A stretch of 22,238 nt of DNA, taken from a virus. Location: positions 1 to 22,238 of IMG/VR virus record IMGVR_UViG_3300034022_000649. The stretch is one strand, 5' to 3'. The notes under the pieces are model-generated. The model was not told where the DNA came from. It searched no databases and was given only the letters and a program-made list of their open reading frames with translations. The position numbers were made by a program, and so were the translations under genes. This document shows positions 2,348-16,023 of this stretch, one piece after another. The first letter of the stretch is position 1; each line of letters begins with the position of its first letter.

Positions 2348-2355
2348 CCCGTTTT
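2324..2355 (+). terminator. Possible terminator overlapping the TTTTGAC element
   Basis: CGGGT (2324-2328) can pair with ACCCG (2347-2351), followed at once by TTTT (2352-2355). The stem is only 5 bp and the loop about 18 nt, so it is weak alone. It spans the stop codon of the large terminase gene. Its T-run is also the first four bases of the repeated TTTTGACATTCGC element, the same arrangement as the stronger hairpin near 6890. Confidence 0.4.
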
Positions 2356-2364
2356 GACATTCGC
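2352..2364 (+). promoter_or_regulatory. Repeated TTTGACWTTCGC element, copy 1
   Basis: TTTTGACATTCGC. From the first T of TTGAC (2354) to the GTG start at 2388 is 34 nt. It lies in the 40-nt gap between the large terminase and the gpW-like gene. TTGACA equals a consensus sigma-70 -35 box, but no TATAAT-like box follows. The start codon is directly preceded by GC, as in most other copies. The role as promoter or initiation element is inferred from recurrence and spacing. Confidence 0.55.
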
Positions 2365-2387
2365 TCCGCGTTACGGATTCCAAGGGC

Positions 2388-2663
2388 GTGAACGTCGCTG
2401 CCCTCGGGAATACCATCTACCGCGCCATTTCGTGCGATGCAGCCGCGTGTGCCAGCATCCGGCGTGAGTTCAGTTCTCTGGCTGTCCTGATCGCCACCGA
2501 TGCCAACGCATCCGCCCGCATTACAAGCGCCACCGTCAACGGCCAGACGTTCTCCGCGCAGGCGTCGATGACCAACGCTCAACGCCTGCAACTCCTGCGC
2601 TGGGTTGTCGCGTGCCTCGACCACGGCGGGCCAATCAGCACCACCCAGATTTCCACGTTCTAA
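2388..2663 (+). CDS. Head-tail joining protein, gpW-like
   Basis: A 91-residue protein that probably seats on the portal as a head-completion factor. Its central part reads ITSATVNGQTF followed by MTNAQRLQLLRWVV, the beta-hairpin-then-helix order I associate with small gpW-type proteins, which pack a short sheet against helices. Its place between large terminase and portal matches lambda (A, W, B). The start is GTG at 2388, supported by the repeated TTTTGACATTCGC element 34 nt upstream and by the lack of a better in-frame start. It is somewhat longer than lambda gpW (about 68 residues). The assignment rests on size, order and a weak pattern; a distinct unnamed connector family is possible. 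Confidence 0.55.
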   Translation: MNVAALGNTIYRAISCDAAACASIRREFSSLAVLIATDANASARITSATVNGQTFSAQASMTNAQRLQLLRWVVACLDHGGPISTTQISTF

Positions 2664-2665
2664 CC

Positions 2666-4432
2666 ATGGCAATCCTCAACGAATTCGGGCAACCCTTCAC
2701 CTTCGCCCATGCGGCGGATCGTTCCAACCGGCGCGGCCCGCAATATACCGTGCGGAATGACGATATCGACAAGCTGATTCCGTCGCATGACCGCAGGACG
2801 CTTTGCAGCCTATCAAATCGGCTGTTCATGAATATGGGCGTGCCTCGCGCCTGCATCCTCCAAAAGGCTGATTTTGCCACCGGGGAAGCCTGGTTGCCGT
2901 CCTATATCGGCCCCGAATCTGACAAGGGTCGAGCTATCTCGAAATTCATGCACGATGTCTGGTATCCTCAATGTGATACCCGCGGCGGAATCTTCGATTG
3001 GTGGAAAATACTAGAGCTTTCGAGCGTGGCAATCGACCGGGACGGGGAGATTTTCTGGTTGCTCGTCAAAGGTGAGGACGGTTTCCCGCGAATCCAACTC
3101 ATCCCGTCGCACCGCTGCCATTCCAGCTATGTCGGGACCGCACAGGTGGGCGATGGACCCTTCAAGGGCTACCGGATGAATGATGGCGTGATCTACTACC
3201 GCAGCGGACGACCCGCCGCCTATCGGTTTAACCTCGGCAACAATGGCCAAGATGATTTCCGCGATGTCCCCGCCGCCGATGTAATCCACCTGTTCGACCC
3301 GTCTCATTCCGAACAAGGGCGAGGATTGCCGGCCTTCACTCATGCGCTTGAGTCGCTGAAAATGTCGCTGTTCTCGACCGAAGACGAACGTATCCGCCAA
3401 CAAATCATTTCCCGGCTGCACCTAACCGTATTCAACGACACCGGAGCGCCTGACCTGGATGACCCGATGACCACGCTTGACCGGACAACTACGGACGGCG
3501 CAGCAGGATTCTCGTCCAAGGCATTCCCCGGCGGCGTTATGTATCTCCCAAGCGATGGCAACCAGCGGATTGAGCAAATCAAGCACGACAACCCCGGCCC
3601 GATCTGGGACGCATTTCAAGATCGCATCGTCCGCGATGCTGTCATTTCCGTATGGTCCTACTCCGTTTGGAAAGGTTCCGGCCAAGGCACCGCAGAGCGT
3701 GGCGAAATCCTCAAGTGCCGCCGCTTCATCACCAAGCGCCAAGGTCAACTTTGGTATGCCGCCAAGCGTGCGTTTACTTGGGCTTACTCAATCTTCGCTG
3801 TATCTGGACGCTTCGCACCACTCAGCAATCCGACCGCTTGGACATTCTCCTACCCTCCACGCCTAACGGTTGACGATGGCAGGGAGTCCAAAATGGAACT
3901 CGACGAACTCCGCACCGGCGCACGCAATATCAGCGAGGTGCTCGGGGCGCGTGGCCTAACCAAAGACGAATTTTTCAAGGAACGCGCAATCTCGGTATGG
4001 GAGCGCAAATACATCGCGCAAACCGTCGCTGAGGAAATGAACGCCAAGCACGGCGTCGAAATCACCATCGAGGACCGCGAAATGTTCATGCAGACCGCCA
4101 ACGAAATGGGCGAAGTTGATTCCGATTCGTCTATCTCCACCGATGAAGATGGCAACCCACTGCCACAAGAAGATGACGAACGTATGAAGTTCGACAACCT
4201 CAAGGCCAAGTTTGATGCCTACGGCGTCGCCGTTCGCGCAGGTGCCATCACTCCATCAGACAGCGATGAAGAAACCTTCCGCGCCGAAGCGGGACTTCCA
4301 CCGATGACTCCTGCCGTTCGCGGCGCATGGAAGGAAGACAAGGGCTATCGCCGACCCATCACCCTTCTCCAAAAAATGGCACAAACTGCCGGTTTCGGAC
4401 CACCTAAAACGGAAGACCCCATTGAAGAATAA
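2666..4432 (+). CDS. Portal protein (lambda B-like)
   Basis: A 588-residue portal forming the dodecameric ring at the capsid vertex through which DNA passes. The segment HSEQGRGLPAFTHALESLKM and the following helix with RIRQQIISRL match the conserved RG-P-L region of lambda-family portals. The N-terminal part is rich in aromatic and basic residues, and the C-terminal 150 residues are acidic (EMGEVDSDSSISTDEDG), as in many portals. The ATG at 2666 is chosen because it follows the upstream stop by two bases and gives a normal N-terminus; an upstream in-frame ATG at 2612 would overlap the gpW-like gene needlessly. It sits between gpW-like and protease genes as in lambda. No Shine-Dalgarno sequence is visible, only TTCTAACC directly before ATG. 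Confidence 0.9.
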   Translation: MAILNEFGQPFTFAHAADRSNRRGPQYTVRNDDIDKLIPSHDRRTLCSLSNRLFMNMGVPRACILQKADFATGEAWLPSYIGPESDKGRAISKFMHDVWYPQCDTRGGIFDWWKILELSSVAIDRDGEIFWLLVKGEDGFPRIQLIPSHRCHSSYVGTAQVGDGPFKGYRMNDGVIYYRSGRPAAYRFNLGNNGQDDFRDVPAADVIHLFDPSHSEQGRGLPAFTHALESLKMSLFSTEDERIRQQIISRLHLTVFNDTGAPDLDDPMTTLDRTTTDGAAGFSSKAFPGGVMYLPSDGNQRIEQIKHDNPGPIWDAFQDRIVRDAVISVWSYSVWKGSGQGTAERGEILKCRRFITKRQGQLWYAAKRAFTWAYSIFAVSGRFAPLSNPTAWTFSYPPRLTVDDGRESKMELDELRTGARNISEVLGARGLTKDEFFKERAISVWERKYIAQTVAEEMNAKHGVEITIEDREMFMQTANEMGEVDSDSSISTDEDGNPLPQEDDERMKFDNLKAKFDAYGVAVRAGAITPSDSDEETFRAEAGLPPMTPAVRGAWKEDKGYRRPITLLQKMAQTAGFGPPKTEDPIEE

Positions 4433-4444
4433 TCACTTAAAGCC

Positions 4445-5458
4445 ATGAAGATCATCCAGATTGAAAACAAATCCGGCAAGGTCAAGCTGACCGACGCAAT
4501 CATGCCATGGAGTGTCGAGAAACTCACCGAGGATATTGGCAAGCTCTTCGGCGCCAAAGCATCGGCGGAAGGCGCGGACTTCGGGGTGATCACGAATTTC
4601 GCCGAGAACGCGGTGGACACGCTGGAGATTGAAATCAATTCCCCCGGTGGAAGCATTTTCGACGGTTACAACATTTACAACGAGATCATGTCTCTGCGTG
4701 AGCGTGGCGTTGTCGTGACCGCAACCGTGACCGGAATGGCAGCATCCATGGCGAGCGTGATCTGCATGGCCTGCAATGTCATCCGCATGGTGCCGCATGG
4801 GAAAATGATGATCCATGAGGCATCGCAAGGCGTCCGGGGTAATGCCGATGAACTCCGCAAAGCTGCCGACCTGCTCGACGGGCTATCAAGCGACATCGCG
4901 CAAATCTACGCGAACCGCACCGGCAAACCGCTGGAAGAAATGCGCGAGCTTATGAAGAGGGAAACCTGGATGAGCGCCAAGGAAGCAGTCACCGCCGGAT
5001 TCGCAAATGAGGTGTTTGACATTCGCGCCGAAGCCCCGAAATCAGTGGGCATGAATCTATTAAAGATGATTTTCCCCGGCAACGAAGCTGAGATTTCCAA
5101 AATCGAAGCCGCACTTGTCGAAGCTGACTCCCTCCGCGAAGACCTGATCAAAGCCGAATCTCGCATCACCGAGCTTTCTGGACTGGCAGAAGCTAACGCA
5201 TCGCTGCAAGGCGAGGTTGCATCACTCACCACCGCTAAGGCCGATCTGGACGCCGCACTTGTGACCGCTTCCGCTGAACTCGCCGCGAAGGATGCCGAAA
5301 TTGAATCCGTCACCGCATCGATTCCGCTCAAGATCACCGAAGCTCTCGCTGCGATTGGCCAGCCTGAGCCGCTGGCGATTGAATCTAAGCCAACCGAGGA
5401 AATCAAAAGCCTCACCGGCTTCTCCAAAGTCTCCGCATTTTTCGCCAAGACCAAATAA
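4445..5458 (+). CDS. Prohead protease, ClpP-like (S14), fused to scaffold-like tail
   Basis: A 337-residue head maturation protease. Residues 1-200 form a ClpP-type domain: INSPGGS (65-70), GMAASMAS with the probable nucleophile S101, and MIHEAS with the probable catalytic H124. At the place where ClpP carries its third catalytic residue, in the segment after SAKEAVTAGFA, I read N188 rather than Asp, which deserves an alignment. Residues 203-337 are rich in Glu, Ala, Leu and Lys with heptad-like spacing, as expected of a scaffolding coiled coil. The end SKVSAFFAKTK is basic and may bind coat protein. Protease, scaffold and coat in this order is the lambda C/Nu3/E plan. An internal ATG at 5051 may start the scaffold alone (separate entry). 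Confidence 0.9.
   Translation: MKIIQIENKSGKVKLTDAIMPWSVEKLTEDIGKLFGAKASAEGADFGVITNFAENAVDTLEIEINSPGGSIFDGYNIYNEIMSLRERGVVVTATVTGMAASMASVICMACNVIRMVPHGKMMIHEASQGVRGNADELRKAADLLDGLSSDIAQIYANRTGKPLEEMRELMKRETWMSAKEAVTAGFANEVFDIRAEAPKSVGMNLLKMIFPGNEAEISKIEAALVEADSLREDLIKAESRITELSGLAEANASLQGEVASLTTAKADLDAALVTASAELAAKDAEIESVTASIPLKITEALAAIGQPEPLAIESKPTEEIKSLTGFSKVSAFFAKTK
5015..5026 (+). promoter_or_regulatory. Repeated TTTGACWTTCGC element, copy 2 (inside protease gene)
   Basis: TTTGACATTCGC within the protease coding frame (reads as FDIR). The 15 bases GTGTTTGACATTCGC (5012-5026) recur identically at 8917-8931. From the first T of TTGAC (5016) to the internal ATG at 5051 is 35 nt, and that ATG is preceded by GGGC. 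The protein-level constraint cannot explain exact reuse of the same codons at two unrelated genes, but a regulatory role is inferred. Confidence 0.45.
5051..5458 (+). CDS. Probable nested scaffolding protein (internal in-frame start)
   Basis: An internal ATG at 5051 (residue 203 of the protease) opens a 135-residue product identical to the protease C-terminus. It begins MNLLKMIFPG and runs as a charged Ala/Glu/Leu-rich probable coiled coil. In lambda the scaffold Nu3 is made exactly this way from within protease gene C, and many phages with a protease-scaffold fusion do the same. The start falls just after the last ClpP-like segment and 35 nt after a copy of the repeated TTTGACATTCGC element, with GGGC before the ATG as at other element-linked starts. 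No Shine-Dalgarno sequence is seen. The domain boundary is visible; separate expression is inferred. Confidence 0.55.
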   Translation: MNLLKMIFPGNEAEISKIEAALVEADSLREDLIKAESRITELSGLAEANASLQGEVASLTTAKADLDAALVTASAELAAKDAEIESVTASIPLKITEALAAIGQPEPLAIESKPTEEIKSLTGFSKVSAFFAKTK

Positions 5459-5487
5459 TCACCAAACCACTCTAACTAACCGATCCC

Positions 5488-6429
5488 ATGCCTAATATCA
5501 CACTACTCGACGTTGCAAAACTCAATGGCAACGATGCCCTCGTTGGACTCGTCGAAGAGTCCATTTCCGCCGCGCCGGAGGTGAATCTGTTTCCCGTCCG
5601 CACTGTTAGCGGCACCGGATTCAAGACCCTGGTCCGCACCGGCCTCCCAACGGTTGACTTCATCGCCGCCTCCCAAGGTATCCCCGGCAGCAAGTCCACC
5701 TTTGACAACAAGCACTTTGATTGCTCGGTTCTAGGTGGCCGGATTGAAGTCTGGAAAACCGTTCTGGACGCTCCCGAAAACGGCAACCCCGCCGACATCA
5801 AAACCATCGAAGCAATGGGAGTCATGGAAGCCGCCATCCGCAAAATCGGAAAGCAGATCTTCTACGGTAAGACCGCCCTCGGTTCCGCTAACGGCTTCCC
5901 TGGCCTTGTTTCCTTCGTAGATTCCGGCATGATTTCCGACGCCACGGGCAGCACCGCCGATACTGGTTCCTCGGTTTACTTCGTGAAGTTCGGACCCAAG
6001 GATGTTTCTCTCGTCATGGGCAAAGATGCCACAATGGAGCTTTCCGAATTCCGTGTGGAATCCCTCGCTGACGCCGACGGTAACAAAGGCCCTGGCGAAG
6101 TTGCGGACCTCGCCTCGTGGATCGGTTTGCAGCAAGCATCCAAGCACTCGGTTGTGCGGATCAAAAACCTAACTGCCCAAGCGGGCAAAGGCTTGACCGA
6201 CGTTCTGATTGCAAACGCTCTTGAACTATTCCCCGCCGGATTCACTCCTGACGCAATCTTCATGAGCCGCCGCAGCCGCCAACAACTCCGTGCTGACCGT
6301 TCCAGCCGCCAAACTAACAGCACTGGCAAGGGCGACGGTGGATCCACTTACACCCCGACGCCAACGGATTTCGAGGGTATCCCGATCATCGCCACCGACA
6401 GCATTCTTAACACCGAGCCAATCGCTTAA
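5488..6429 (+). CDS. Major capsid protein
   Basis: A 313-residue protein taken as the coat subunit, probably of HK97-like fold. The N-terminal stretch LLDVAKLNGNDALVGLVEE and the following RTVSGTGFKTLVRTGLP are a pattern I know from a family of phage major capsid or major structural proteins. The end includes DGGSTYTPTPTDFEGIPIIATDSIL, typical of the C-terminal strand of such coats, where the peptide resembles F-G-IPI-TD. It follows protease and scaffold and precedes a small cement-like gene, the standard order. The start codon lacks a Shine-Dalgarno sequence; the leader is CTAACTAACCGATCCC. No long N-terminal delta domain is present, consistent with a scaffold supplied by the upstream gene. 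The family is fairly sure, the name by position. Confidence 0.82.
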   Translation: MPNITLLDVAKLNGNDALVGLVEESISAAPEVNLFPVRTVSGTGFKTLVRTGLPTVDFIAASQGIPGSKSTFDNKHFDCSVLGGRIEVWKTVLDAPENGNPADIKTIEAMGVMEAAIRKIGKQIFYGKTALGSANGFPGLVSFVDSGMISDATGSTADTGSSVYFVKFGPKDVSLVMGKDATMELSEFRVESLADADGNKGPGEVADLASWIGLQQASKHSVVRIKNLTAQAGKGLTDVLIANALELFPAGFTPDAIFMSRRSRQQLRADRSSRQTNSTGKGDGGSTYTPTPTDFEGIPIIATDSILNTEPIA

Positions 6430-6441
6430 CCTACCACGACC

Positions 6442-6864
6442 ATGTCTAACAAATTCTCACCGAACGTTACCGATAAGGCTGTCAATCCCGTCCCATTCGC
6501 AATGGGCGCGGCTTCGGCAAGCACCACAAGCACCGCGATCGACCTTGAAACAGTCGGGACCGGAAGCTTCCGCGATGGCAACATCGAGTTTGAGCTTTCT
6601 ATTCCTGCTCTTGCAACCGGCGTCATCCCTGATGCTTCCGTTGTAAGCTTGATTCTGGAAACCTCCACCGCGTCGAACTTCGCCACAATCACCGGCACCT
6701 ATACCGAAACCGTCACTGGCGCTGGTGGTGTTGGAATTGCAGCGACTGCCGCCCGGTTCCGTATTCCTAGCGACTGTCCGCGTTACGTCCGCTTTAAGAC
6801 GACTCGTGGCGCAGGCGGAACCACTGCCGCCGCTGTCAACGCGACCGGCAACGTCCGCTTCTAA
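6442..6864 (+). CDS. Probable capsid decoration (cement) protein
   Basis: A 140-residue protein directly after the coat gene. It is small, rich in Thr, Ala, Gly and Val, with alternating hydrophobic residues that suggest beta structure, and ends RFKTTRGAGGTTAAAVNATGNVRF. Size, composition and position match capsid cement or decoration proteins, which sit in this slot in many siphophages. No signal peptide or catalytic motif is visible. It is followed by the best terminator in the window, so the coat and cement pair can be transcribed to a defined end, as needed for very abundant proteins. An alternative is a minor head protein. Function is inferred from context only. Confidence 0.55.
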   Translation: MSNKFSPNVTDKAVNPVPFAMGAASASTTSTAIDLETVGTGSFRDGNIEFELSIPALATGVIPDASVVSLILETSTASNFATITGTYTETVTGAGGVGIAATAARFRIPSDCPRYVRFKTTRGAGGTTAAAVNATGNVRF

Positions 6865-6889
6865 ATCTCTGTTGGATGTGTTCATGCAG

Positions 6890-6921
6890 CCGCCGTCCTG
6901 AGTAATCGGGGCGGCGGTTTT
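6890..6921 (+). terminator. Rho-independent terminator after the capsid genes
   Basis: CCGCCGTCC (6890-6898) pairs with GGGGCGGCGG (6908-6917) in a 9-bp stem with one G-T wobble and a loop of about 10 nt, followed by TTTT (6918-6921). It lies 25 nt after the cement gene stop. The T-run doubles as the start of TTTTGACTTTCGC, so termination and the next start signal are fused. Confidence 0.7.
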
Positions 6922-6930
6922 GACTTTCGC
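6918..6930 (+). promoter_or_regulatory. Repeated TTTGACWTTCGC element, copy 3
   Basis: TTTTGACTTTCGC. From the first T of TTGAC (6920) to the ATG at 6953 is 33 nt; GGGC precedes the ATG. It follows directly on a terminator hairpin, which is the strongest local argument that it is a promoter restarting transcription for the connector genes. Confidence 0.6.
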
Positions 6931-6952
6931 GGGGTGGGCGTGACCACCGGGC

Positions 6953-7264
6953 ATGTCGATTGTCTCCGATTTCGTCCGCAGCATGGCCGAGCAAGCCTTC
7001 CCGATGTTAGGCGAGGAAACCGTGACCATCGGCGCAGTCTCGCTCGCTTGCGTTCTGTCCGAAGTTGAACACGGCAAAGACTTCTCAAGCGGCGGATTTG
7101 AGAACATCCAGCGGCTCCAGGCTGTCTGCCGCACCGCATCGATGCCGGCCACTTCAATCATCAAGAAATCCGCCACAGCGCGGGGTCTATCGTTCCGAGT
7201 GGAAAGTATCCGCAAGGGCGGCGATTTCACCACCATCACGCTGGAACAAATCGAAAAAGCATGA
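6953..7264 (+). CDS. Head-tail connector, FII-like
   Basis: A 103-residue protein in the position of lambda FII, after coat and decoration genes and before tail completion genes. It begins with a helix (SDFVRSMAEQAFPML), then ETVTIGAVSLACVLSEVE, and ends SFRVESIRKGGDFTTITLEQIEKA. Helix, beta strands, and a final R-G-FTT-L-LEEIEK segment are what I recall from small FII-type joining proteins in phages. It would complete the neck and give the docking surface for the tail. The start ATG follows GGGC and lies 33 nt after TTTTGACTTTCGC, with no Shine-Dalgarno sequence. Assignment rests on order, size and a remembered pattern. Confidence 0.6.
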   Translation: MSIVSDFVRSMAEQAFPMLGEETVTIGAVSLACVLSEVEHGKDFSSGGFENIQRLQAVCRTASMPATSIIKKSATARGLSFRVESIRKGGDFTTITLEQIEKA

Positions 7265-7309
7265 CGCTTTTTCCTTTTATGCGGCACGGATCGGGGGTAG
7301 GTTTCCCGC

Positions 7310-7846
7310 ATGTCCGCCGCCGCGCTCCTCACCTCTGAAATCCCCGCCGACGTTTCCGGCTGGTGGGTATCGGAGAAATATGACGGCGTGCGTGCAATAT
7401 GGAACGGTCGCAAGCTGCTTTCCCGCAACGGGAAAGATCTGAAAGCGCCGAAATGGTTCACCGATAACCTTCCGAAAAACCTCCGTTTGGATGGCGAACT
7501 TTGGATGGGACGCGGAACCTTTGATACGCTGGTTTCCGTTATCCAGCGGAAAGACGCCAACTGGCAGGGAGTCAAATTCATGGTCTTCGATCTGGCCGAC
7601 GTTGGCGAGTTTGAGTCACGCAACCGCATCTTGCAGAGCGCAAGCCTCCCCTTCCACGTTGTCGCGGTGCCGCACCTGCCGCTCGCTAGCCACGCTGAGC
7701 TTGATGCCTTGGAGCGCGATATCGTCAACGCTAGCGGCGAAGGATGTGTGATCCGCCGCCCCGGCTCCAAGTATCGCCCCGGTCGCATGGGCGACACCAT
7801 CAAGGTGAAACGGTTAGTTGAGGATTGCGACCGCTGGCAGGGCTGA
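7310..7846 (+). CDS. ATP-dependent DNA ligase-like nucleotidyltransferase, no OB domain
   Basis: A 178-residue protein with the full nucleotidyltransferase motif set of ATP-dependent ligases: motif I EKYDGVR with the AMP-accepting K23, SRNG (38-41), motif III LDGELW (60-65), IIIa FMVFDL (90-95), motif IV EGCVIRR (144-150) and motif V TIKVKR (163-168). It ends ten residues after motif V, so the C-terminal OB fold of about 80-100 residues that all classical ligases use to engage DNA is absent. The motifs look closest to the minimal LigE-type enzymes, but there is no signal peptide. It should be able to bind ATP and form the enzyme-AMP intermediate; nick sealing without a partner is uncertain. 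Its place inside the connector module, not with replication genes, is odd. No known head or tail role exists for such a domain. Confidence 0.88.
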   Translation: MSAAALLTSEIPADVSGWWVSEKYDGVRAIWNGRKLLSRNGKDLKAPKWFTDNLPKNLRLDGELWMGRGTFDTLVSVIQRKDANWQGVKFMVFDLADVGEFESRNRILQSASLPFHVVAVPHLPLASHAELDALERDIVNASGEGCVIRRPGSKYRPGRMGDTIKVKRLVEDCDRWQG

Positions 7847-7860
7847 TTTTTGACTTTCGC
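7847..7860 (+). promoter_or_regulatory. Repeated TTTGACWTTCGC element, copy 4
   Basis: TTTTTGACTTTCGC begins directly after the ligase stop codon. From the first T of TTGAC (7850) to the GTG at 7883 is 33 nt; GGGC precedes the GTG. No clear hairpin is upstream here. Confidence 0.55.
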
Positions 7861-7882
7861 GCCGGGCGTCTGATGACGGGGC

Positions 7883-8581
7883 GTGATCAAGGGCGAGATT
7901 GACCGGCCAAAACTAGAGCGTTCGCTGAAACGCTTTGCGAAGGAATTTGGCGACACCAGCGCGCAAGCCGTTGTTAGGTGGTCGATTCAAACATGCCGTG
8001 ACCTAGCGATTGAAACGCAGGCGTGGGGCAAGACTGGCACCAAGAAGAAGCAGGAAGCCGCGATCATCGCCGACGCCTACAATGTGGTTGAGGTGATTGA
8101 CCGGGAGCCTCGCGGGGTAAAGGCACTCAAGACACCCGGCGAGGTCAATGACTGGATCGAACTCAACCGCACGCGCCGCCGTGGCCGCACCGCGCATCTA
8201 TCTTGGGAGGATAAGAAGCGATGTTCCCGCCAAACTTTCAACGCCGCGATGAAGATCCGCCACGCCCGCGCAGGTATGGCAAAGGGAGGGTGGTTAGGCG
8301 CAGGCCAAGCCATCGCGTCGGCGCAGACCGGGCAAGACCGGATCAACATCGGCAAGAACTTTCTCGGCTACGCGCAGAAACACTCCCGGTTCGGAAGCGC
8401 CAAGAAGCCCGCCAGTGGATGGAAACCAGCCGCGTCCATCACTAACTCCGCATCCCACTCCGCTAGCAGCCATGTCGTTAGGCCCGCAGCGATTGATAAA
8501 GCCATCAACTGGGGACTCAAGAAAACCATCACTTGGTATCGCTCCGCAATTCGCCGCCAAGACCAAAAGCAAAGACCATGA
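7883..8581 (+). CDS. Tail completion protein candidate (gpZ-like position)
   Basis: A 232-residue basic protein between the FII-like connector and the putative tail terminator, where lambda has gene Z. The N-terminal half is helical, with ERSLKRFAKEFGDTSAQAVVRW and CRDLAIETQAWGKTG; the middle carries RTRRRGRTAHLSW and many further Arg and Lys; the C-terminus is Ser/Ala- then Arg/Gln-rich. I do not recognise a diagnostic motif. An N-terminal helical pattern with early acidic and basic residues followed by a GKTG turn fits gpZ or HK97 gp10-type minor tail proteins loosely. The start is GTG at 7883, 33 nt after TTTTTGACTTTCGC and preceded by GGGC. The stop overlaps the next start as ATGA. The role is inferred from order. 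Confidence 0.5.
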   Translation: MIKGEIDRPKLERSLKRFAKEFGDTSAQAVVRWSIQTCRDLAIETQAWGKTGTKKKQEAAIIADAYNVVEVIDREPRGVKALKTPGEVNDWIELNRTRRRGRTAHLSWEDKKRCSRQTFNAAMKIRHARAGMAKGGWLGAGQAIASAQTGQDRINIGKNFLGYAQKHSRFGSAKKPASGWKPAASITNSASHSASSHVVRPAAIDKAINWGLKKTITWYRSAIRRQDQKQRP

Positions 8582-9012
8582 CCATCCTCCACTCCCTATC
8601 CGACTGGCTCGCATTCAAGCAAGCGACCACCCCATCAATCGCCACTCTGCCAGTCGTCAAAATGGGTGACGATGGCGACCTTTCCCCGCCGTTTCTTGGG
8701 TTGATGGAGAGTGGGTCGAGCACGCACGAAACCGCCGGGGTCAACATGCGCGGGGTGACTGACTACGAGGTAACCGTCGAACTCCACACCATACCGACTG
8801 ACGAGGAAGAGGAAGGAACCGAACCGGAAACCGAACGCACAATTCGCAATGCGATCTATGGTGTTTTGGGGGACCAAGCATCAATCGCATGGATGGAGGA
8901 CCGCAACGGCTGGCGGGTGTTTGACATTCGCATTGCTGCCCCGACGACAGAAGCAGGTGACGGACGCAGGATTTCCCGATGGAACCTCACAATCGTCGCT
9001 TGTCCTATCTAA
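8578..9012 (+). CDS. Tail terminator candidate (gpU-like position)
   Basis: A 144-residue protein likely to cap the tail tube. The sequence opens with a helix, SLSDWLAFKQATTPS, then has strands such as TDYEVTVELHTIP, an acidic loop (TDEEEEGTEPETE), a helix RTIRNAIYGVL, and a last strand WRVFDIRIAAP followed by RRISRWNLTIVACPI. A small alpha-beta protein with a final outer strand is compatible with tail terminators of the U type; I cannot show homology. The ATG at 8578 overlaps the preceding stop as ATGA, so translation is probably coupled. The sequence encoding VFDIR contains copy 5 of the repeated element. A tail tube gene follows, as in lambda (Z, U, V). Confidence 0.5.
   Translation: MTILHSLSDWLAFKQATTPSIATLPVVKMGDDGDLSPPFLGLMESGSSTHETAGVNMRGVTDYEVTVELHTIPTDEEEEGTEPETERTIRNAIYGVLGDQASIAWMEDRNGWRVFDIRIAAPTTEAGDGRRISRWNLTIVACPI
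8920..8931 (+). promoter_or_regulatory. Repeated TTTGACWTTCGC element, copy 5 (inside gpU-like gene)
   Basis: TTTGACATTCGC, coding for FDIR in the overlapping gene. The 15-mer GTGTTTGACATTCGC is identical to copy 2. From the first T of TTGAC (8921) to the GTG at 8957 is 36 nt; that GTG is in frame with the tail tube gene and would add 23 residues before the ATG at 9026. This GTG is not preceded by GC, unlike the other five. Confidence 0.4.
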
Positions 9013-9025
9013 CTTCCCAAACACT

Positions 9026-9451
9026 ATGGCTGCAACTGTCCACGGAGCTTCTCGTTTCGGCATCACCAACGACTCAACCGCCACCGGGCTTCTGCTTGGT
9101 GATCTGTCCTACGATTACAGCGTCGAAATCACCTATGCCATGAATCACGTTGGCGACAAGGTTTCAATGGCGTTGCTCAACGACATGACAGAGGTCACCG
9201 CTTCCGGTGTCGTCGCTGTCAAAGGATCGGGATTCACGCTTAATCTGGGTGATGCTCTCACACTCGCCAATGCGACCGCGGATTCGCTCAACCTAAACTC
9301 TCAGAATCTCTTTTCGACTCCGGTGGCGAATGCTGGAACCGTGATTTCCGGCGCGAGCCTAAAGCGCATGAACGCCGATTTCGAGACGGGTGAACTGAAG
9401 GCGATCTTCAATCCACTCATTGCAACAAGCTCTCCTAGCATCGTGAGCTAA
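9026..9451 (+). CDS. Probable major tail (tube) protein
   Basis: A 142-residue protein in the slot of the tail tube subunit, between the tail terminator candidate and the chaperone and tape-measure genes. It is rich in Ala, Thr, Ser and Val with few charged residues. It has strands around YDYSVEITYAMN, DKVSMALLN and EVTASGVVAVKGSGFTLNLGD, and a C-terminal NADFETGELKAIFNPLI. Strand-rich, small and uncharged fits a tube subunit that stacks in hexamers. Two starts are possible: ATG at 9026, which I use because it follows the upstream stop in the usual manner, and GTG at 8957, which is in frame and lies 36 nt after a repeated element. There is no Shine-Dalgarno sequence at either. Function is inferred from position and composition. 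Confidence 0.55.
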   Translation: MAATVHGASRFGITNDSTATGLLLGDLSYDYSVEITYAMNHVGDKVSMALLNDMTEVTASGVVAVKGSGFTLNLGDALTLANATADSLNLNSQNLFSTPVANAGTVISGASLKRMNADFETGELKAIFNPLIATSSPSIVS

Positions 9452-9464
9452 CGGACCCCCAACC

Positions 9465-10040
9465 ATGACAGGCCAAAAGAAAACATTCGGCAGCGGGGAC
9501 ATCAACCTCTCTGCCGCCATGCTGACGATGGGAGTCCCCCCCGACGCCCGCAATCCCATCGAACTGATAGCCCGCGACAACGGCAAGGACTACGTTCGTT
9601 TCCATTTCGATGAGGTGTCATTCTGCGGAGACTACACGCCCGACGCACTTTCCTACGCGTGGAGTAATCCGCGCCAATTCAAAGCTGAAAATCCGGCGCA
9701 TCCTTTCGCGCTGCTGATGGATTTCATCGCCGCCCGCCCGAATGGCTGCGGCAATGCTGACGAATGGCAAGACCACGCCGCTGGATTCCTGGCACTGCCG
9801 ATTGACGAGATCCGCAAGACCTACCGATCTATCGCTAGGACGTGCCTAGCGGCTCCCGAATCGCCGTTGGCTTATGTCTGCGCATTTATCCGCAACCGTG
9901 CCGACCTAGTGGCAGCAGCGAAGCAGCGCGAGGCAAATGGAGTGTTCACCAACATGCAGGATCGAAGCAAATCGGTTTCGATGATCAACGCGAAAGCGCC
10001 ACGGCGGATTCGTGATTTCCTGCTTTCACACGTTAGATAA
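9465..10040 (+). CDS. Unrecognised tail-region protein
   Basis: A 191-residue protein of unknown role between the tail tube and the tail chaperone genes. I do not recognise its family. The first half is mixed (GVPPDARNPIELIARDNGKDYVRFHFDEVSF); the second half is helical and basic, with LPIDEIRKTYRSIARTCLAAPESPL, an AFIRNRADLVAAAKQRE helix and a basic end, KAPRRIRDFLLSHVR. Three cysteines occur in scattered places (FCGDY, NGCGN, RTCLA). No membrane segment or signal peptide is visible. The position would suit an extra tail chaperone or a tube-associated factor. It starts 13 nt after the tail tube stop and ends 7 nt before the next gene, so it belongs to the same transcript. Confidence 0.7.
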   Translation: MTGQKKTFGSGDINLSAAMLTMGVPPDARNPIELIARDNGKDYVRFHFDEVSFCGDYTPDALSYAWSNPRQFKAENPAHPFALLMDFIAARPNGCGNADEWQDHAAGFLALPIDEIRKTYRSIARTCLAAPESPLAYVCAFIRNRADLVAAAKQREANGVFTNMQDRSKSVSMINAKAPRRIRDFLLSHVR

Positions 10041-10047
10041 AAAGACA

Positions 10048-10425
10048 ATGACCCACGAAAAAGCAAAGCATCAATCCGTCATCGATGGCCCGAAAGAATC
10101 CGGCAAGTTCACGCTCTATCCGGTCACGTTCGGCCTGCTGGAGTGGCTGCAATCCACCCGCAAAAATCCGCTGATCGTCGGTGGCGATGCTGAAGTGAAG
10201 CACGCCGTCGAACTATGCTACGCATTCACTCGCCCCGCCGCTGAAATCTGCCGAATCCAAAACGCCAAGGTCGCCAAGCTGGTTTCTGACTTCTCTAACG
10301 AACTCACGCCATCCGAATTCCACCGCATCCAAAAGCACGCACAGGATGAGCTGATGAAATTCGGGCAAACCTCCGCCGTGCCAAAAAAAAAGCCGACGCC
10401 ACCCCGTCAGAAGGTCAAGCGATAG
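10048..10425 (+). CDS. Tail assembly chaperone, short form (gpG-like)
   Basis: A 125-residue protein just upstream of the tape measure gene. It reads FTLYPVTFGLLEWLQSTRKNP, then helices AVELCYAFTRPAAEICRIQ and EFHRIQKHAQDELMKFG, and a basic Pro/Lys end, PKKKPTPPRQKVKR. In siphophages this slot holds a chaperone (lambda G) that coats the tape measure before tube assembly, usually with a frameshifted longer form. Here nine A residues (10383-10391) encode the PKKK segment and create an A AAA AAG slip site at codons 113-115. The zero frame stops 33 nt later at 10425, leaving a 208-nt gap before the tape measure that is otherwise unexplained. The start at 10048 is preceded by AAAAAGAC, with no canonical Shine-Dalgarno sequence. 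Confidence 0.72.
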   Translation: MTHEKAKHQSVIDGPKESGKFTLYPVTFGLLEWLQSTRKNPLIVGGDAEVKHAVELCYAFTRPAAEICRIQNAKVAKLVSDFSNELTPSEFHRIQKHAQDELMKFGQTSAVPKKKPTPPRQKVKR

Positions 10426-10655
10426 ACCCATGCTCAACCGCGTCCATCGTTTTTATTCTCGGGCAATGCGGCATCCCATGGCGGGAGGCACTCTACGAAA
10501 TCCCTTGCGGGTTAGCCCATCAACTCATGGCCTGCCACTGGCTTTCCCTCGGGCTGGAAATTGAATCTCCGTCAACGCCTGACACATCAACCCGCCTCGA
10601 AACCTTCCACGAACTTTCTAACCGCGAACACTCATGGCAATTGGAACAACTCTAA
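10048..10655 (+). CDS. Tail assembly chaperone, frameshifted long form (gpGT-like)
   Basis: A -1 slip at A AAA AAG joins 115 zero-frame codons (10048-10392) to 87 codons of the -1 frame (10392-10652), ending with TAA at 10653-10655: 202 residues in all. The extension has no good start codon of its own. It reads as a normal protein, with IVFILGQCGIPWREALYEIP and GLAHQLMACHWLSLGLEIE, a helical pattern like the T part of G/GT chaperones, which bind the tube protein while the G part binds the tape measure. The extension overlaps the tape measure start (10634) by 22 nt. I translated the -1 frame by hand and found it open throughout. The product is an inference; the open frame and heptamer are seen. 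Confidence 0.68.
10386..10392 (+). promoter_or_regulatory. Programmed -1 frameshift site A AAA AAG
   Basis: The heptamer A AAA AAG lies in the right phase (zero frame AAA AAA AAG) at the 3-prime end of the chaperone gene. It is the same heptamer as in Escherichia coli dnaX. A short stem, GACG (10395-10398) with CGTC (10405-10408), follows within a few bases and could stimulate pausing, though 4 bp is weak. After a -1 slip the frame is open to the stop at 10653. Confidence 0.7.
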
Positions 10656-11896
10656 AAATCAGCTTTGACGCCAAAAGTGTTCAACGTGGACTAGCAGGCC
10701 TAAAAAGCGGATTATCTAGCATCGCCGGAATCGGTTTGTCTGCATTCAAGGGAATTGCAGTCGGAGCAACCGCCGCCGCCGTCGGAATCACTGCCCTTGC
10801 TGTCAAGCTCAATGGAATTGGGGAGTCGGCAATCTCTTCCGAAAACCGGGTTAAGAACATCGTAAAGCAGATGGGGCTTTTCGGCACCGAGGCCGACAAT
10901 GTTTCTAAGCGATTACTGGACTTCGCAGACGTGAGCGCAAGGCAGCTCGGTATTGATGATGGCATCATTGCCATGACCCAAGCGAAGCTCTCGACGTTCA
11001 AGGATCTTGCTGCTTCCGCTGATGTGGCTGGTGGGGCGTTCGACCGTGCCACCATGGCGGCAATCGACATGGCGGCGGCTGGATTCGGCACGGCTGAGAC
11101 TAATGCCGTCCAACTGGGCAAGGCGCTCAACGATCCAATCAAAGGCATTAACTCACTCACCCGGTCAGGCATTACTTTTACCACTGAAGAGAAAAAGATG
11201 ATCGCTGGAATGGTGGAAATGGGCAAGGCGGCACAAGCTCAAAACATCATCCTCAAAGCCGTCGAAACTCAGATCGGGGGGACCGCTGCCGCAACAGCAA
11301 CAGCAAGCCAAAAAATCAACGTGTCTCTTGGCCAGCTTGTTGAAGCATTCGCGAAACCATTCAGTCAAGGATTCTCCACTTTACCCGGCCAAGTTGAGGG
11401 GGTGTTTTCCGGCCTTGTCGCCATGGCTGAAAAGTTCGGGGGTATGTTCGGCAACGCCATAGCGGACTCCATCAGCGGGAATTATGACAAGTTCATTACC
11501 GCCGGAAAACTCATCGGGGACATATTGTCAGCAGCCACAGAGGCGTCTTATCAAGCAGGGATTATGAATCTCCACAAAGGGATAATGAAAACGCTAGAAG
11601 ATATTAATCCTATTCGGCGCATGTCAGAAGCTGTGGGTTATGAAGGGGCTAGGGGTAGTCAGTGGGAAACTCCAAGTTTTGGAGAGCTTTTAGAGGCTCA
11701 TATGATCAACCGAGGGATCAAGCAACAAGCGCAGAATGTGTCGCAAGGAACCCAGGGCTTCGTCCCCGGCACCAACAACCGATTCCAATTCGCGCCCCCC
11801 GGAAGCGATTCGCCCTTAACCGATGGCAACGGAAACCGAGTCATTGAGGTTCTCAGCAACATCGAAAAAAACACCGCGTCAGGCGCAAAAATGTGA
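10634..11896 (+). CDS. Tail tape measure protein
   Basis: A 420-residue protein that would set tail length and pass into the host envelope at infection. Near its start (about residues 25-60) is a Gly/Ala-rich hydrophobic stretch, SIAGIGLSAFKGIAVGATAA, the membrane-like segment common in tape measures. It then continues helical, with FADVSARQLGIDDGIIAMTQAKL, KALNDPIKGINSLTRSGI and repeated Ala/Gly segments; the phrase ALNDPIKGINSL-R-GI-FT is widely found in tape measures. The rule of 0.15 nm per residue gives a tail of about 63 nm, so this is a short non-contractile tail if fully helical. The C-terminal third is Gly/Pro-rich. It starts inside the -1 chaperone extension and ends with TGATG overlapping the next gene. 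Confidence 0.88.
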   Translation: MAIGTTLKISFDAKSVQRGLAGLKSGLSSIAGIGLSAFKGIAVGATAAAVGITALAVKLNGIGESAISSENRVKNIVKQMGLFGTEADNVSKRLLDFADVSARQLGIDDGIIAMTQAKLSTFKDLAASADVAGGAFDRATMAAIDMAAAGFGTAETNAVQLGKALNDPIKGINSLTRSGITFTTEEKKMIAGMVEMGKAAQAQNIILKAVETQIGGTAAATATASQKINVSLGQLVEAFAKPFSQGFSTLPGQVEGVFSGLVAMAEKFGGMFGNAIADSISGNYDKFITAGKLIGDILSAATEASYQAGIMNLHKGIMKTLEDINPIRRMSEAVGYEGARGSQWETPSFGELLEAHMINRGIKQQAQNVSQGTQGFVPGTNNRFQFAPPGSDSPLTDGNGNRVIEVLSNIEKNTASGAKM

Positions 11897-12750: not shown

Positions 12751-12753
12751 CCG

Positions 12754-13365
12754 ATGATTATCAAGCCACGCGGAACCGTAGTATTGCCACGCCGTTCAAG
12801 ACCGGGCCTGGACCTTTTGCCATGGTGCCGGGAGGTGGACGCCGCATTGCAACAACTCCGCGACCGAGGAATAAATATCGACCCCCGGCGCGGTGGACGC
12901 GGTGGCGCGGTTGATTCCACCTGCTACTTCGGCGAGGTAATCACCTACCTGGTCGGCGAAACCACAAAGACCGGAATCCGTGGCGGCACCATCGCCTGCG
13001 GCAACAAGAATTTCAACGTCCCCAACAAGGAACTCAACCTTGCATCCACTGGCGTGACCCTGATCTATCTGGAAATTTCCGTCACCGCGAACAACGACGA
13101 CGACGGTGAAATCCTGCTGCCCGGCATCGAGACCAGCACCGAAACCACACCCTCGGGATTCTGGAAATCTGACCCATGGACGGCGGAACCTGTGACCCAA
13201 TACCCCAACAACAACCGCCCCCTGGTCACAACCGGCGTCGGCAAAATCATCGTGCCAATCGGCAAGTTGACCATCGCGGACGGCGCGGCCACGCTTGAAG
13301 CGGTCGGCTGTGGCAACATCACCATCAACCACTGCGGTGGAACCCTAACGGCAGCGCGAGGATGA
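12754..13365 (+). CDS. Tail tip-associated protein (unrecognised)
   Basis: A 203-residue protein with no family I can name. It begins with basic and hydrophobic residues, including LPRRSRPGLDLLPWCREVDAA, has a very Arg/Gly-rich stretch, DPRRGGRGG, and then a beta-rich body with GVTLIYLEISVTANNDDDGE and GVGKIIVPIGKLTIADGA. It ends with GCGNITINHCGG, a possible cysteine pair. The beta body with IVPIGKLTI and the order after a distal tail candidate fit a tail tip component. It overlaps the next gene as ATGA (13362-13365), so the two proteins are likely co-produced and may bind one another. Function is inferred only from context. Confidence 0.7.
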   Translation: MIIKPRGTVVLPRRSRPGLDLLPWCREVDAALQQLRDRGINIDPRRGGRGGAVDSTCYFGEVITYLVGETTKTGIRGGTIACGNKNFNVPNKELNLASTGVTLIYLEISVTANNDDDGEILLPGIETSTETTPSGFWKSDPWTAEPVTQYPNNNRPLVTTGVGKIIVPIGKLTIADGAATLEAVGCGNITINHCGGTLTAARG

Positions 13366-14942
13366 ACGTAATCACCTCGCAAGACGTGGCCTTGATTGGC
13401 TGCTGCCCGTGCCAACCGGATGAGTGCGAGGCCCCGAGGAAGGAGTGTCAGTCTATCAGTGTTTCGGCGTCCAGCGCGGATGACGATTATATCGATGCGC
13501 TCGCGGAATGGGAGGCTGGCGGCGAGGTTGGCGATCCTCCACCGGAGCCGGAAGGATACAGCGATGTGACCCATGGCAGTTGGGCATCATTCACGCAGCC
13601 GATGGGCGAGCTAACCGATGATGTCCCCACGCTTTACCGTGAGCTTGCCAGCGTGACCGGAGAGGTGGTCTACACGGGTGACATCAAGTTTTATTATGCC
13701 GTCCCCGGCACATCTTACGGGTCTTTTTACATCCCATCTTCAAACCAGTTTGTAGAGTGGACGGCAAATGGAACGAGCTTCGACTACACGGCGATTTCAC
13801 GGCAATACGATTACGGGGTCGATATTGGAGCAGATGGCGGATGGGCGGTTAGAATTATAGCCGAAGATGAGGGAACCGAGGGATTCCCCTCAATCCCCGC
13901 GCCATTCGCGTGGGTTGAAACCGACCCACCGGAATCCCCGCCATGCACGGCAACGCTCAAGATCGTTGTCACGCTGGACCGCTCCGCAGAGGACGCAGGA
14001 AGCGCGGTGGATGTGCCAACACTGGCGATCACCGAAGACCCAGAGGCAGACGATACCCCTGCCGGATGGGATGCAGCGGACGACTGGCAGTGGTCAAACC
14101 TAACCGAGAAAACGCAGGACTCGGCAGAGCTAGGTGAGGGCGTGGACAAAGACGCTGTTATCGCCAGGGCGACCGCGAAAATGCCAGCCGGGTGGGACGA
14201 TCCTGATGGCGATGCTTGCACAGCTTCCATCGTCACGGTGTGGCCAAAGATCGGGGATTTACTATCAGGCGCAGACCCCGAAGCTGAACCACCAGTTGCG
14301 GCAAGCTGGCCACCGTGCAGTTCCGAGGAATTGCCAATCTCGGCGACTGGATCCGCGACCGTCACCAAAGCCCGTTACCGCATGGGCATCCCCGCCGGCG
14401 CACGATGGGAAGCGACGACCGCCGAATGGTTGGCATGGGACGCGGCAGACATCGAAACCAGAGGCGACGAGCCACCGCAAACCACCTTCGACGCCGCGCA
14501 TGCCGCCTGGGTGATTGCCCACGCCGCATGGACCGCCGCCGATCCCGACGAACGCGGAGAGGAGCCGCTGGAGCCGACCCCGCGCAGCACTTACGAACTC
14601 CAGTGGGATGAGGTGTTTTTCCCGGAGGAGTGGGAAGCATGGAAAGCACTCAAGGACGCCTTCGACGCCGCCACCGCCGCGCATGAAATCTGGACCGAAT
14701 GCGAGGAAGACTGCGGTGACGAACCTGTCATTCCCGAGGATCCCGGCGCGGAACCGACGGCGCCTTCGCTGGTCGCATCCCGCTCATGGGTCTATGCCGC
14801 CGATGAATGGTCTGGCTGGTTTGAAATCGCGGTGCCAACTGAGCCAGGCGAAACCCGGGTGGTAAACATGCTCGTCATCTGCTATCGCTCGGCAGCGTTA
14901 GGCCAGAAACCCACCGCCCACGGGGAGGTGTATGAACTCTGA
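13362..14942 (+). CDS. Large acidic tail protein with Trp/GDEP repeats
   Basis: A 526-residue, strongly acidic protein, not recognised. It begins with a cysteine cluster, CCPCQPDEC, then CQS. The middle is beta-like with many aromatic residues (GDIKFYYAVPGTSYGSFYI). Four times a helix with Ala and Trp is followed by an acidic Gly-Asp/Glu-Pro turn and a proline segment: AEWEAGGEVGDPPPEPEG near residues 50-65, WLAWDAADIETRGDEPP near 365-380, AHAAWTAADPDERGEEP near 385-402, and AHEIWTECEEDCGDEPVIP near 440-460. Such A-W-helix plus acidic-Pro units look like spacers between virion domains. It probably belongs to the tail tip or a fibre base. Its start overlaps the previous stop as ATGA and its end overlaps a 54-codon gene. 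Confidence 0.75.
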   Translation: MNVITSQDVALIGCCPCQPDECEAPRKECQSISVSASSADDDYIDALAEWEAGGEVGDPPPEPEGYSDVTHGSWASFTQPMGELTDDVPTLYRELASVTGEVVYTGDIKFYYAVPGTSYGSFYIPSSNQFVEWTANGTSFDYTAISRQYDYGVDIGADGGWAVRIIAEDEGTEGFPSIPAPFAWVETDPPESPPCTATLKIVVTLDRSAEDAGSAVDVPTLAITEDPEADDTPAGWDAADDWQWSNLTEKTQDSAELGEGVDKDAVIARATAKMPAGWDDPDGDACTASIVTVWPKIGDLLSGADPEAEPPVAASWPPCSSEELPISATGSATVTKARYRMGIPAGARWEATTAEWLAWDAADIETRGDEPPQTTFDAAHAAWVIAHAAWTAADPDERGEEPLEPTPRSTYELQWDEVFFPEEWEAWKALKDAFDAATAAHEIWTECEEDCGDEPVIPEDPGAEPTAPSLVASRSWVYAADEWSGWFEIAVPTEPGETRVVNMLVICYRSAALGQKPTAHGEVYEL

Positions 14943-15096
14943 ACCCAATCCATGGCCACGCCCGCGCAAACGGTCTGGCTACGCGCTAGGCACGCCTGAG
15001 AAGCCCGTTGGCGTGATGGTCGCCAAACCTGCCGCCGGAGCCGCCACGGTGGCGCGGTGCAAGACCTGCGGGCCGCCTAAGCCTAAGCCGCTTTGA
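14932..15096 (+). CDS. 54-residue basic KPKP peptide, unknown
   Basis: A small gene in an otherwise empty gap. It starts with ATG at 14932, overlapping the end of the acidic protein gene, with GGGGAGGTG directly before it, one of the few good Shine-Dalgarno sequences on this strand. The product is basic (MNSEPNPWPRPRKRSGYALG at the start) with a pair of cysteines, CKTC, and ends GPPKPKPKPL-like: I read CGPPKPKPL. There are nine Pro in 54 residues. Its stop codon TGA (15094-15096) is part of the repeated TTTGACATTCGC element for the next gene. No family is recognised. The ribosome binding site and tight fit argue for a real gene; the small size argues for caution. Confidence 0.55.
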   Translation: MNSEPNPWPRPRKRSGYALGTPEKPVGVMVAKPAAGAATVARCKTCGPPKPKPL

Positions 15097-15103
15097 CATT
15101 CGC
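15092..15103 (+). promoter_or_regulatory. Repeated TTTGACWTTCGC element, copy 6
   Basis: TTTGACATTCGC. From the first T of TTGAC (15093) to the ATG at 15127 is 34 nt; CGC precedes the ATG. The TGA inside it is the stop codon of the 54-residue gene. A short GC stem (15068-15071 with 15088-15091) precedes it but is too weak to call a terminator. It would serve the fibre and lysis region. Confidence 0.55.
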
Positions 15104-15126
15104 GGGAGGGTTGCGACACACTGCGC

Positions 15127-16023
15127 ATGGCTACGATTTCAGACGCCCGCGCTATCTATGGGCTACAAGCTACCGGGGCGCATACCTCCACCAACGTCTC
15201 CGGCTCCGTCCAAATCGGCACCGCGCAAACCCAAGTTAGATTTCCGACCGCCGACGTTGCCTATTCCCTCCGCGCAATCTTCGCGGGCAATGGCGACGTT
15301 CTGGCCATCAACCTCACAAATTGCAATACCACCGGAAGCACGGCGTTCGTGGCCGGCAACGCGCAGATTGAAACCGCAACGATCACCGCAGCATCCGGCG
15401 CGACATCAAGCGGGACCATGACCATGGTTTTGACCGCAGCAGGACTGACCGGAAGCCCGCTGAATATCGCCGTCCCGCTGGTCACCGGAACGCATACCAC
15501 CGCCGCTTTCATCGCGACCGCAGCACGCAACGCCCTACTTGCAAACGCCGCTGTCATCGCCCGCTTTTCCATCGGCGGAACCGGGGCGGATATCGTTCTA
15601 ACTCGCCTGCCAACTTCGACCCACACGGTCCCGACCGGAACCCTCAACCTCTACGCTGCAAACGATCCCACGCTTAATCTTGCGATTCCTGCGGGACTCG
15701 GAGTTACACTCGCCGTAGCATCCGCAAACACTACGCTGGGAGTAATCAGCGACGGCGTCAAAATCTACGACGGTGACGGGAAGGATTTCGAGGGGGAGAC
15801 GCTCGCGTCGATTGATACGATCAACGGGATTCTCGTGTCTAGCACTAATACAAGCGGTGGGGTTGTGATGGCGGGAACATCAACAGATTTACAACTCGCC
15901 GGCGGCGGGTTTGCACTAATTGCGAACAACAATACGGAGGTCGGCGTTGATCAAACTCTCACGTTTACAAACGGGGTCATGCCATGCGACCTAACCATCA
16001 CAGTCATCGGAACATACGCATAA
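15127..16023 (+). CDS. Virion adhesion or tail fibre protein, beta-rich
   Basis: A 298-residue protein rich in Thr, Ala, Gly and Ser, with very few charged residues. The middle has the segment LTGSPLNIAVPLVTGTHTTA, then AARNALLANAAVIARFSIGG and TGADIVLTR, a domain pattern I have seen in phage fibre and neck proteins. The C-terminal third reads as beta sandwich (TTLGVISDGVKIYDGDG, then GVDQTLTFTNGVMPCDLTI). No signal peptide is present, so it acts on the virion. It is preceded by copy 6 of the repeated element, so this may be the first gene of a separate fibre and lysis transcript. Its stop overlaps the next start as TAATG. The exact role is not known. Confidence 0.68.
   Translation: MATISDARAIYGLQATGAHTSTNVSGSVQIGTAQTQVRFPTADVAYSLRAIFAGNGDVLAINLTNCNTTGSTAFVAGNAQIETATITAASGATSSGTMTMVLTAAGLTGSPLNIAVPLVTGTHTTAAFIATAARNALLANAAVIARFSIGGTGADIVLTRLPTSTHTVPTGTLNLYAANDPTLNLAIPAGLGVTLAVASANTTLGVISDGVKIYDGDGKDFEGETLASIDTINGILVSSTNTSGGVVMAGTSTDLQLAGGGFALIANNNTEVGVDQTLTFTNGVMPCDLTITVIGTYA

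Follow-up and report, generated by a model that had tools for sequence, protein, structure and literature searches.

The window analysed here, 22,238 bases of viral DNA (IMG/VR virus record IMGVR_UViG_3300034022_000649), carries six exact copies of the 12-mer TTTGACWTTCGC, and this element is very probably a class of leaderless promoter, recognised by an RNA polymerase of the sigma70 family and, to judge from gene content only, probably active late in infection. In the mechanism we propose, TTGAC(A/T) would serve as the -35 hexamer and the adjoining TTCGC as a lineage-specific extension, while an A lying 12 nucleotides (nt) past the 12-mer and a weak pyrimidine preference 4 nt further on would be the remnant of a -10 box (-11A and -7) at a spacer of 16. 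Transcription would start at the start codon or about 2 nt or less from it, so that genes B, C, D and F and a scaffold-like frame would be expressed from leaderless mRNAs; gene E2 would be expressed from the fifth copy with a leader about 70 nt long, and the copy within the protease gene would give the scaffold a separate transcript. A 40,102-base virus record (G001) contains the whole window without a difference, and all six copies fall within the structural region of that record. As G001 encodes an integrase-like gene (Phage_integrase, E 1.9e-5, slightly below the curated cut-off) and also an HTH_3 repressor-like gene, the phage is probably temperate. The copies, their -10 positions and the genes that follow them are:

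2353..2364, + strand: copy 1, putative -35 hexamer with TTCGC extension, upstream of gene B (2388)
2376..2381, + strand: -10 position of copy 1, GATTCC, with the fixed A at 2377
2388..2663, + strand: gene B, 91 amino acids (aa), between terminase and portal, predicted leaderless GTG start
5015..5026, + strand: copy 2, inside the head protease gene; exact match and synonymous-codon test
5038..5043, + strand: -10 position of copy 2, GAAATC, with the fixed A
5051..5458, + strand: internal in-frame start in the protease gene (4445-5458), putatively scaffold-like by position, predicted leaderless ATG
6919..6930, + strand: copy 3, upstream of gene C; exact match and orthologs
6942..6947, + strand: -10 position of copy 3, GACCAC, with the fixed A
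6953..7264, + strand: gene C, 103 aa, no function assigned, predicted leaderless ATG
7849..7860, + strand: copy 4, upstream of gene D; exact match and orthologs (5/22)
7872..7877, + strand: -10 position of copy 4, GATGAC, with the fixed A
7883..8581, + strand: gene D, 232 aa, predicted leaderless GTG start
8920..8931, + strand: copy 5, in the 3' end of gene E1 (8533-9012); exact match and codon test
8943..8948, + strand: -10 position of copy 5, GACGAC, with the fixed A; predicted +1 near 8955
9026..9451, + strand: gene E2, start most likely ATG 9026 and not GTG 8957, from homolog alignment
15092..15103, + strand: copy 6, upstream of gene F, overlapping the last bases of the open reading frame (ORF) 14932-15096; exact match
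15115..15120, + strand: -10 position of copy 6, GACACA, with the fixed A
15127..16023, + strand: gene F, 298 aa, predicted leaderless ATG

An exact search recovered the six copies that an earlier, sequence-only reading of the window had listed, all on the + strand and with no exact copy on the - strand of the window; three of its positions were exact and three were off by 1-2 nt, the true ones being 2353, 6919 and 7849. Its distances from TTGAC to the start codon (34, 35, 33, 33, 36 and 34 nt) and the GC directly before five of the six starts were as it had described, and the copies were, as it had estimated, well beyond chance, since 100 shuffles of the window gave a mean of 0.01 and a maximum of 1. 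With two mismatches tolerated there were 8 matches against 4.2 expected; the excess is then gone and the signal is therefore the exact 12-mer. A scan of G001 for TTGACWTTCGC-N11-GA with at most one mismatch returned six matches, which are the six window copies, and none in the reversed control. The -35 sequence, TTGACW, resembles TTGACA in 6/6 window copies.

The same reading overlooked the second half of the element, an isolated A exactly 12 nt past TTTGACWTTCGC in all six copies (TTTGACWTTCGC-N12-A). The 'loose GA-containing stretch' it had noticed before the starts corresponds to the -10 position, with GA at a fixed 11 nt in 6/6. The key base of a sigma70-type -10 box is -11A, and an A standing alone 16 nt past TTGACA fits it. 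We then compared the window with 59 terminase relatives, loci fetched without the motif at 24-100% identity (58 in the main search, plus L015). In these loci and the window, the 58 distinct sites with at most one mismatch gave the consensus TTTGAC[AT]T[TC][CG]GC with an A after twelve loose columns; the A was present in 55/58 and C or T four positions past it in 51/58, and one of the matches was on the reverse strand. When sites were grouped by spacer similarity the A was kept in 28/31 groups, other downstream columns having A in 2-17 of them. In a spacer test, an A stood where -11 falls with a spacer of 16 in 6/6 copies and, among the terminase-fetched loci, in 43/44 extension-bearing sites.

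Ortholog counts were taken from these 59 loci alone, with all genes other than B, scaffold and C as controls, except D and E2; TTGAC was sought at -40..-27 and start distances at 26-40 nt. Enrichment at gene starts in relatives, one of the points on which the sequence-only reading had staked its interpretation, was evident: B, scaffold and C together had TTGAC in 51/65 upstream regions against 2/167 for other genes. Gene B orthologs had it in 29/33 distinct upstream regions, scaffold orthologs in 11/14 and gene C orthologs in 11/18 (15/18 for TTGAY). The control genes were TerS (0/16), TerL (0/38), portal (1/25), protease (0/28), ligase (0/10), E1 (0/14), g9465 (1/19) and eight small sets (0/17). 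A wider pool of 142 loci includes 65 (L016-L080) fetched by the motif itself, so its counts are inflated and the terminase-only recount is preferred; that pool gave TTGAC before 82/97 genes against 2/193 controls (omitting twelve small gene sets with 1/48, the one being window gene 19021), 100/105 sites with a start at 34/35 nt, and a start/-10 coupling with p 1.4e-6.

The extension differs by lineage, being TTGCCATTCGC in L095-L097, TTGACATTG in L101-L105 and TTTGACATCCGC at several sites of L099 and L109. In some distant relatives ordinary promoters were found, namely TTGACA-N17-TAACAT (L106), TTGACA-N17-TAGAGT (L107), TTGACA-N17-TAGTTT (L123), TTGATT-N17-TAACAT (L083) and TTGATT-N16-TATTTT (L092), whose -10 boxes end 6-7 nt before the start codon.

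The distance from box to start was nearly fixed in the 70 ortholog sites (34 nt in 39 and 35 nt in 26, thus 65/70 at 34/35), and by eye none of the six starts named by the sequence-only reading has a Shine-Dalgarno at the usual spacing. Both features would also suit the other option of that reading, an RNA-level translation initiation element in which a factor of the ribosome or the phage would bind the 12-mer in the mRNA, some 34 nt ahead of the start codon. We consider this very improbable, because the start codon shifts with the lone A, ordinary TAnnnT boxes in relatives are most frequent at 6 nt from the start codon and copy 5 lies about 100 nt from its gene. Where the key A occurred only at spacer 16, the start lay at 34 nt in 21 sites, 35 in 7, 33 in 2 and 38 in 1; where it occurred only at spacer 17, the start lay at 35 nt in 10, 36 in 1 and 34 in none (p 4.1e-5 for the 34/35 table). 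The start codon tracks the -10 position, as expected if it is also the transcription start. The TAnnnT position was sharp: of the 70 sites, 7 had a box ending exactly 6 nt before the start, one had it at 7 nt, and any other gap between 0 and 25 nt had 0-2, and the hexamer ending 6 nt before the start had A at its second place in 57/70 sites, the next best being 39 at gap 5. Copy 5 is the exception to this position of about 6 nt. The RNA consensus fold had zero energy for real and column-shuffled alignments alike and is hence uninformative.

Under the promoter reading, initiation could also occur some nucleotides before the start codon and give short leaders. Start-site choice is flexible by a few nt and 5/70 sites fall outside 34/35, but the -10-to-start distance equals that given for leaderless genes by Zheng et al. 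(PMC3160421), and short leaders are thus unlikely.

Copies 1, 3 and 4 are intergenic and copy 6 only overlaps the end of an ORF, while copies 2 and 5 lie inside genes and both encode FDIR, as would be expected if the protein were conserved. In the protease copy, 21 rows were kept after 2/23 were removed as other protein sites (L014 LDMR, L101 LDMG); the codons were GAC in 21/21 and ATT in 21/21, against a background of 57% and 39% in the terminase and portal genes, and the first residue was F, V or L with its codon always ending in TT. The E1 copy had GAC in 15/15 and ATT in 13/15. Since the codons are fixed while the first residue varies, the constraint acts on nucleotides; this codon test, with only 0.01 copies expected by chance and most copies outside coding sequence, largely refutes protein-coding conservation or chance as an explanation, which we regard as extremely improbable.

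The comparison supports the promoter and leaderless mRNA option of the sequence-only reading well for five of the six copies, and copy 5, about 100 nt before its gene, departs from it. The fifth start it had assigned, GTG 8957, is probably wrong: the alignment with homologs of E2 runs from ATG 9026, about 100 nt past copy 5, and an open in-frame ATG or GTG at 33-37 nt was found in 1/19 distinct E1 copies (some from motif-fetched loci), the window's own only. The other 18 have no such start, yet the nucleotides at this place are kept, which also argues against an RNA element. Because a start at that distance is confined to the window and the E2 homologs align from ATG 9026, the best reading of copy 5 is a promoter whose transcript has a leader. 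In L028, L065, L075 and L116, the first three of which are motif-fetched, a TTGAC box stands directly before E2, at 35 nt.

Several observations weigh against the promoter reading. A TAnnnT -10 box was present in 0/6 window copies and, at spacers 15-18, in 8/70 ortholog sites, near the chance level of a few per cent if position is set aside; lacking TANNNT, the element would count as a variant of the sigma70-type leaderless promoter. The -7 pyrimidine is weak (25/31 groups, other columns reaching 24), 7 spacer-16 sites have their start at 35 nt, and the p values are optimistic as the sequences compared are related. Start-proximal TTGAC was found in only 5/22 gene D and 1/20 gene E2 orthologs. 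No gene F ortholog was found in the terminase-fetched loci; the 10/10 gene F orthologs with TTGAC all come from motif-fetched loci and therefore carry little weight. Scans of genome contigs with terminase and integrase alignments found no relative and hence no host genome. A compensating role of TTCGC for a weak -10 was also rejected: on a first, rough score the correlation was rho -0.21 (p 0.03) and sites with the full extension had fewer TAnnnT boxes (Fisher p 0.006), and with spacers 16-17 only the correlation fell to rho -0.11 (p 0.29), or -0.06 with GC removed.

The pairing of a TTCGC extension with a near-absent -10 is an unusual combination. Within the promoter reading, there is a serious possibility, somewhat short of an even chance, that the main sigma factor does not suffice and that a dedicated alternative sigma factor or late activator acts on TTCGC. 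The conserved extension, the weak -10 and the restriction of the six copies to structural genes in the 40 kb record agree with this, as does the repressor gene of G001, which has TACATT 8 nt before its ATG (a start chosen by the analyst) and no TTCGC; on this one example, other promoters of the phage genome may have ordinary -10 boxes. Against a dedicated factor, 0/18 phage records exceeded the Sigma70_r4 (PF04545) cut-off, many of them being fragments and 5 having weak matches, and ordinary TAnnnT promoters occupy the same place in some relatives. One conserved small gene was tried as the activator and gave no support, its model being a single helix of modest confidence (mean predicted local distance difference test score, pLDDT, 68; 4 sequences). 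Activator-dependent promoters are exemplified by the middle promoters of T4, and the conserved TTCGC is only suggestive of an accessory-protein site beside the -35 in an activator-dependent late promoter. Rather tentatively, and with less than even confidence, we put forward TTTGACWTTCGC with a -10 of little more than one A as a new late-promoter class, in which a phage or host factor would read TTCGC and govern a leaderless structural regulon, including a buried scaffold promoter, across a wide and probably Verrucomicrobiota-associated lineage.

The small protein is encoded before the terminase genes on the reverse strand of G001 (16851-17063; L132:2941-3150:-), is 60-70 aa long, contains KRG(S/T)Y(A/S)RR and is conserved in four motif-bearing loci.

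Across the viral collection, the pattern matched at least 119 stretches against 113 for its reversed control, so raw counts do not separate the two. Among the matches listed, homologs of window genes occurred in 87/155 motif loci against 3/113 control loci, and two or more matches per locus in 29/155 against 0/113. Again among the matches listed, the exact 12-mer with a GTG at 19-49 nt had no distance peak (8/133 placements at 34/35), and in the placements elsewhere A stood at the key place in 33/125. The phage-specific class proposed by the sequence-only reading thus looks specific to this phage lineage, with no start-distance peak among the matches listed from the viral collection at large.

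A cultured lytic phage of a Verrucomicrobia strain, P8625 (KP792622), described in PMC4642752, resembles the window in its terminase, portal and protease genes and very weakly in gene C (E 0.07); it is the top record for portal, but only one of 66 for terminase. The available text of its paper does not contain the word 'promoter'. We examined 44 of its 52 annotated gene starts. TTGACA lies exactly 36 nt before the ATGs at 5448, 10772, 15594 and 22442, and TTGCCA at the same distance before ATG 9656, where the weak gene C match begins; two further genes have TTGAC at 41-42 nt. By position only, the genes at 5448, 10772 and 15594 would be equivalent to B, E2 and F, and P8625 appears to carry sister promoters at similar gene positions. 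Unlike the window, P8625 lacks TTCGC and has GTATCC-N7-GGATAC-like inverted repeats at 5426, 8089, 10750, 15573, 16569 (N8) and 17515, three of which overlie the -10 regions of structural genes with TTGACA/TTGCCA boxes; the repeat is possibly an operator. The annotated start of P8625_13 is the TTG of the likely TTGCCA -35 box (L143:9620-9656), and ATG 9656 suits the weak homology better.

Given the apparent sister promoters and the shared genes, a Verrucomicrobiota host is likely, though not certain, for the phage of the window. The integrase of this phage had no match in phages or plasmids. Some Verrucomicrobia, namely Akkermansia and IMCC26134, are reported among Shine-Dalgarno-scarce organisms (PMC10783764). 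Some early genes (g11324, 5800-6519 and 2296-2511) have Shine-Dalgarno-like stretches by eye. Bacteroidetes promoters carry TTTG at -33 and TAnnTTTG at -7, and the latter was absent by eye in all six copies.

Zheng et al. 2011 (PMC3160421) describe leaderless genes with TANNNT about 12 bp before the start. The window shares with these genes, and with those reported from Deinococcus-Thermus (PMC12340547), a -10 at 12-13 nt before the start, the lack of a Shine-Dalgarno and a start at the predicted +1, but differs in its strong TTCGC-extended -35, in a -10 of little beyond an A and in the phage structural genes concerned. The string 'verrucomicrobi' does not occur in the main texts of the two papers. 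Cluster O mycobacteriophages also have predicted leaderless SigA-type promoters (PMC4351075), although their SigA-like boxes come from a sigma70 search, the host phylum is another one and the passages on them mention no extended -35. In the open-licence literature on leaderless genes, Verrucomicrobia or Akkermansia start sites and phage late promoters, the element was not described, the broader topics being partly covered.

In lambda, the cI mRNA is leaderless and the C/Nu3 pair is a scaffold nested in a protease gene. The window resembles lambda in its predicted leaderless phage transcripts and its scaffold start nested in the protease gene, but its nested scaffold has its own predicted promoter. 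The site of gene B between terminase and portal is the gpW position of lambda.

These results predict transcription starts to the base in the phage lineage of the window, and suggest that, in place of a single late operon with a leader, such a phage has several structural genes that are leaderless and started separately. They bear on the annotation of gene starts, as at P8625_13, and P8625 and its host offer a cultured system for study.

Some further features of these loci were recorded. A promoter copy of its own precedes gene D in the window, L100, L109 and L123, all with ligase homologs, and an ATP-dependent DNA ligase-like gene lies between C and D in the window (7310-7846); L099 has the D copy without a ligase match, and L084 (same contig as L024; ligase match) has no copy. 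A 763-aa protein encoded at L132:8846-11134:- (reverse strand of G001, 8867-11158) joins SNF2/Helicase_C with N6_N4_Mtase and is 96% identical in G004, whose structural genes differ more. A tandem GAGCCT repeat at 20430-20485 of the window encodes an EP-rich tail on the protein whose gene precedes that of the endolysin.

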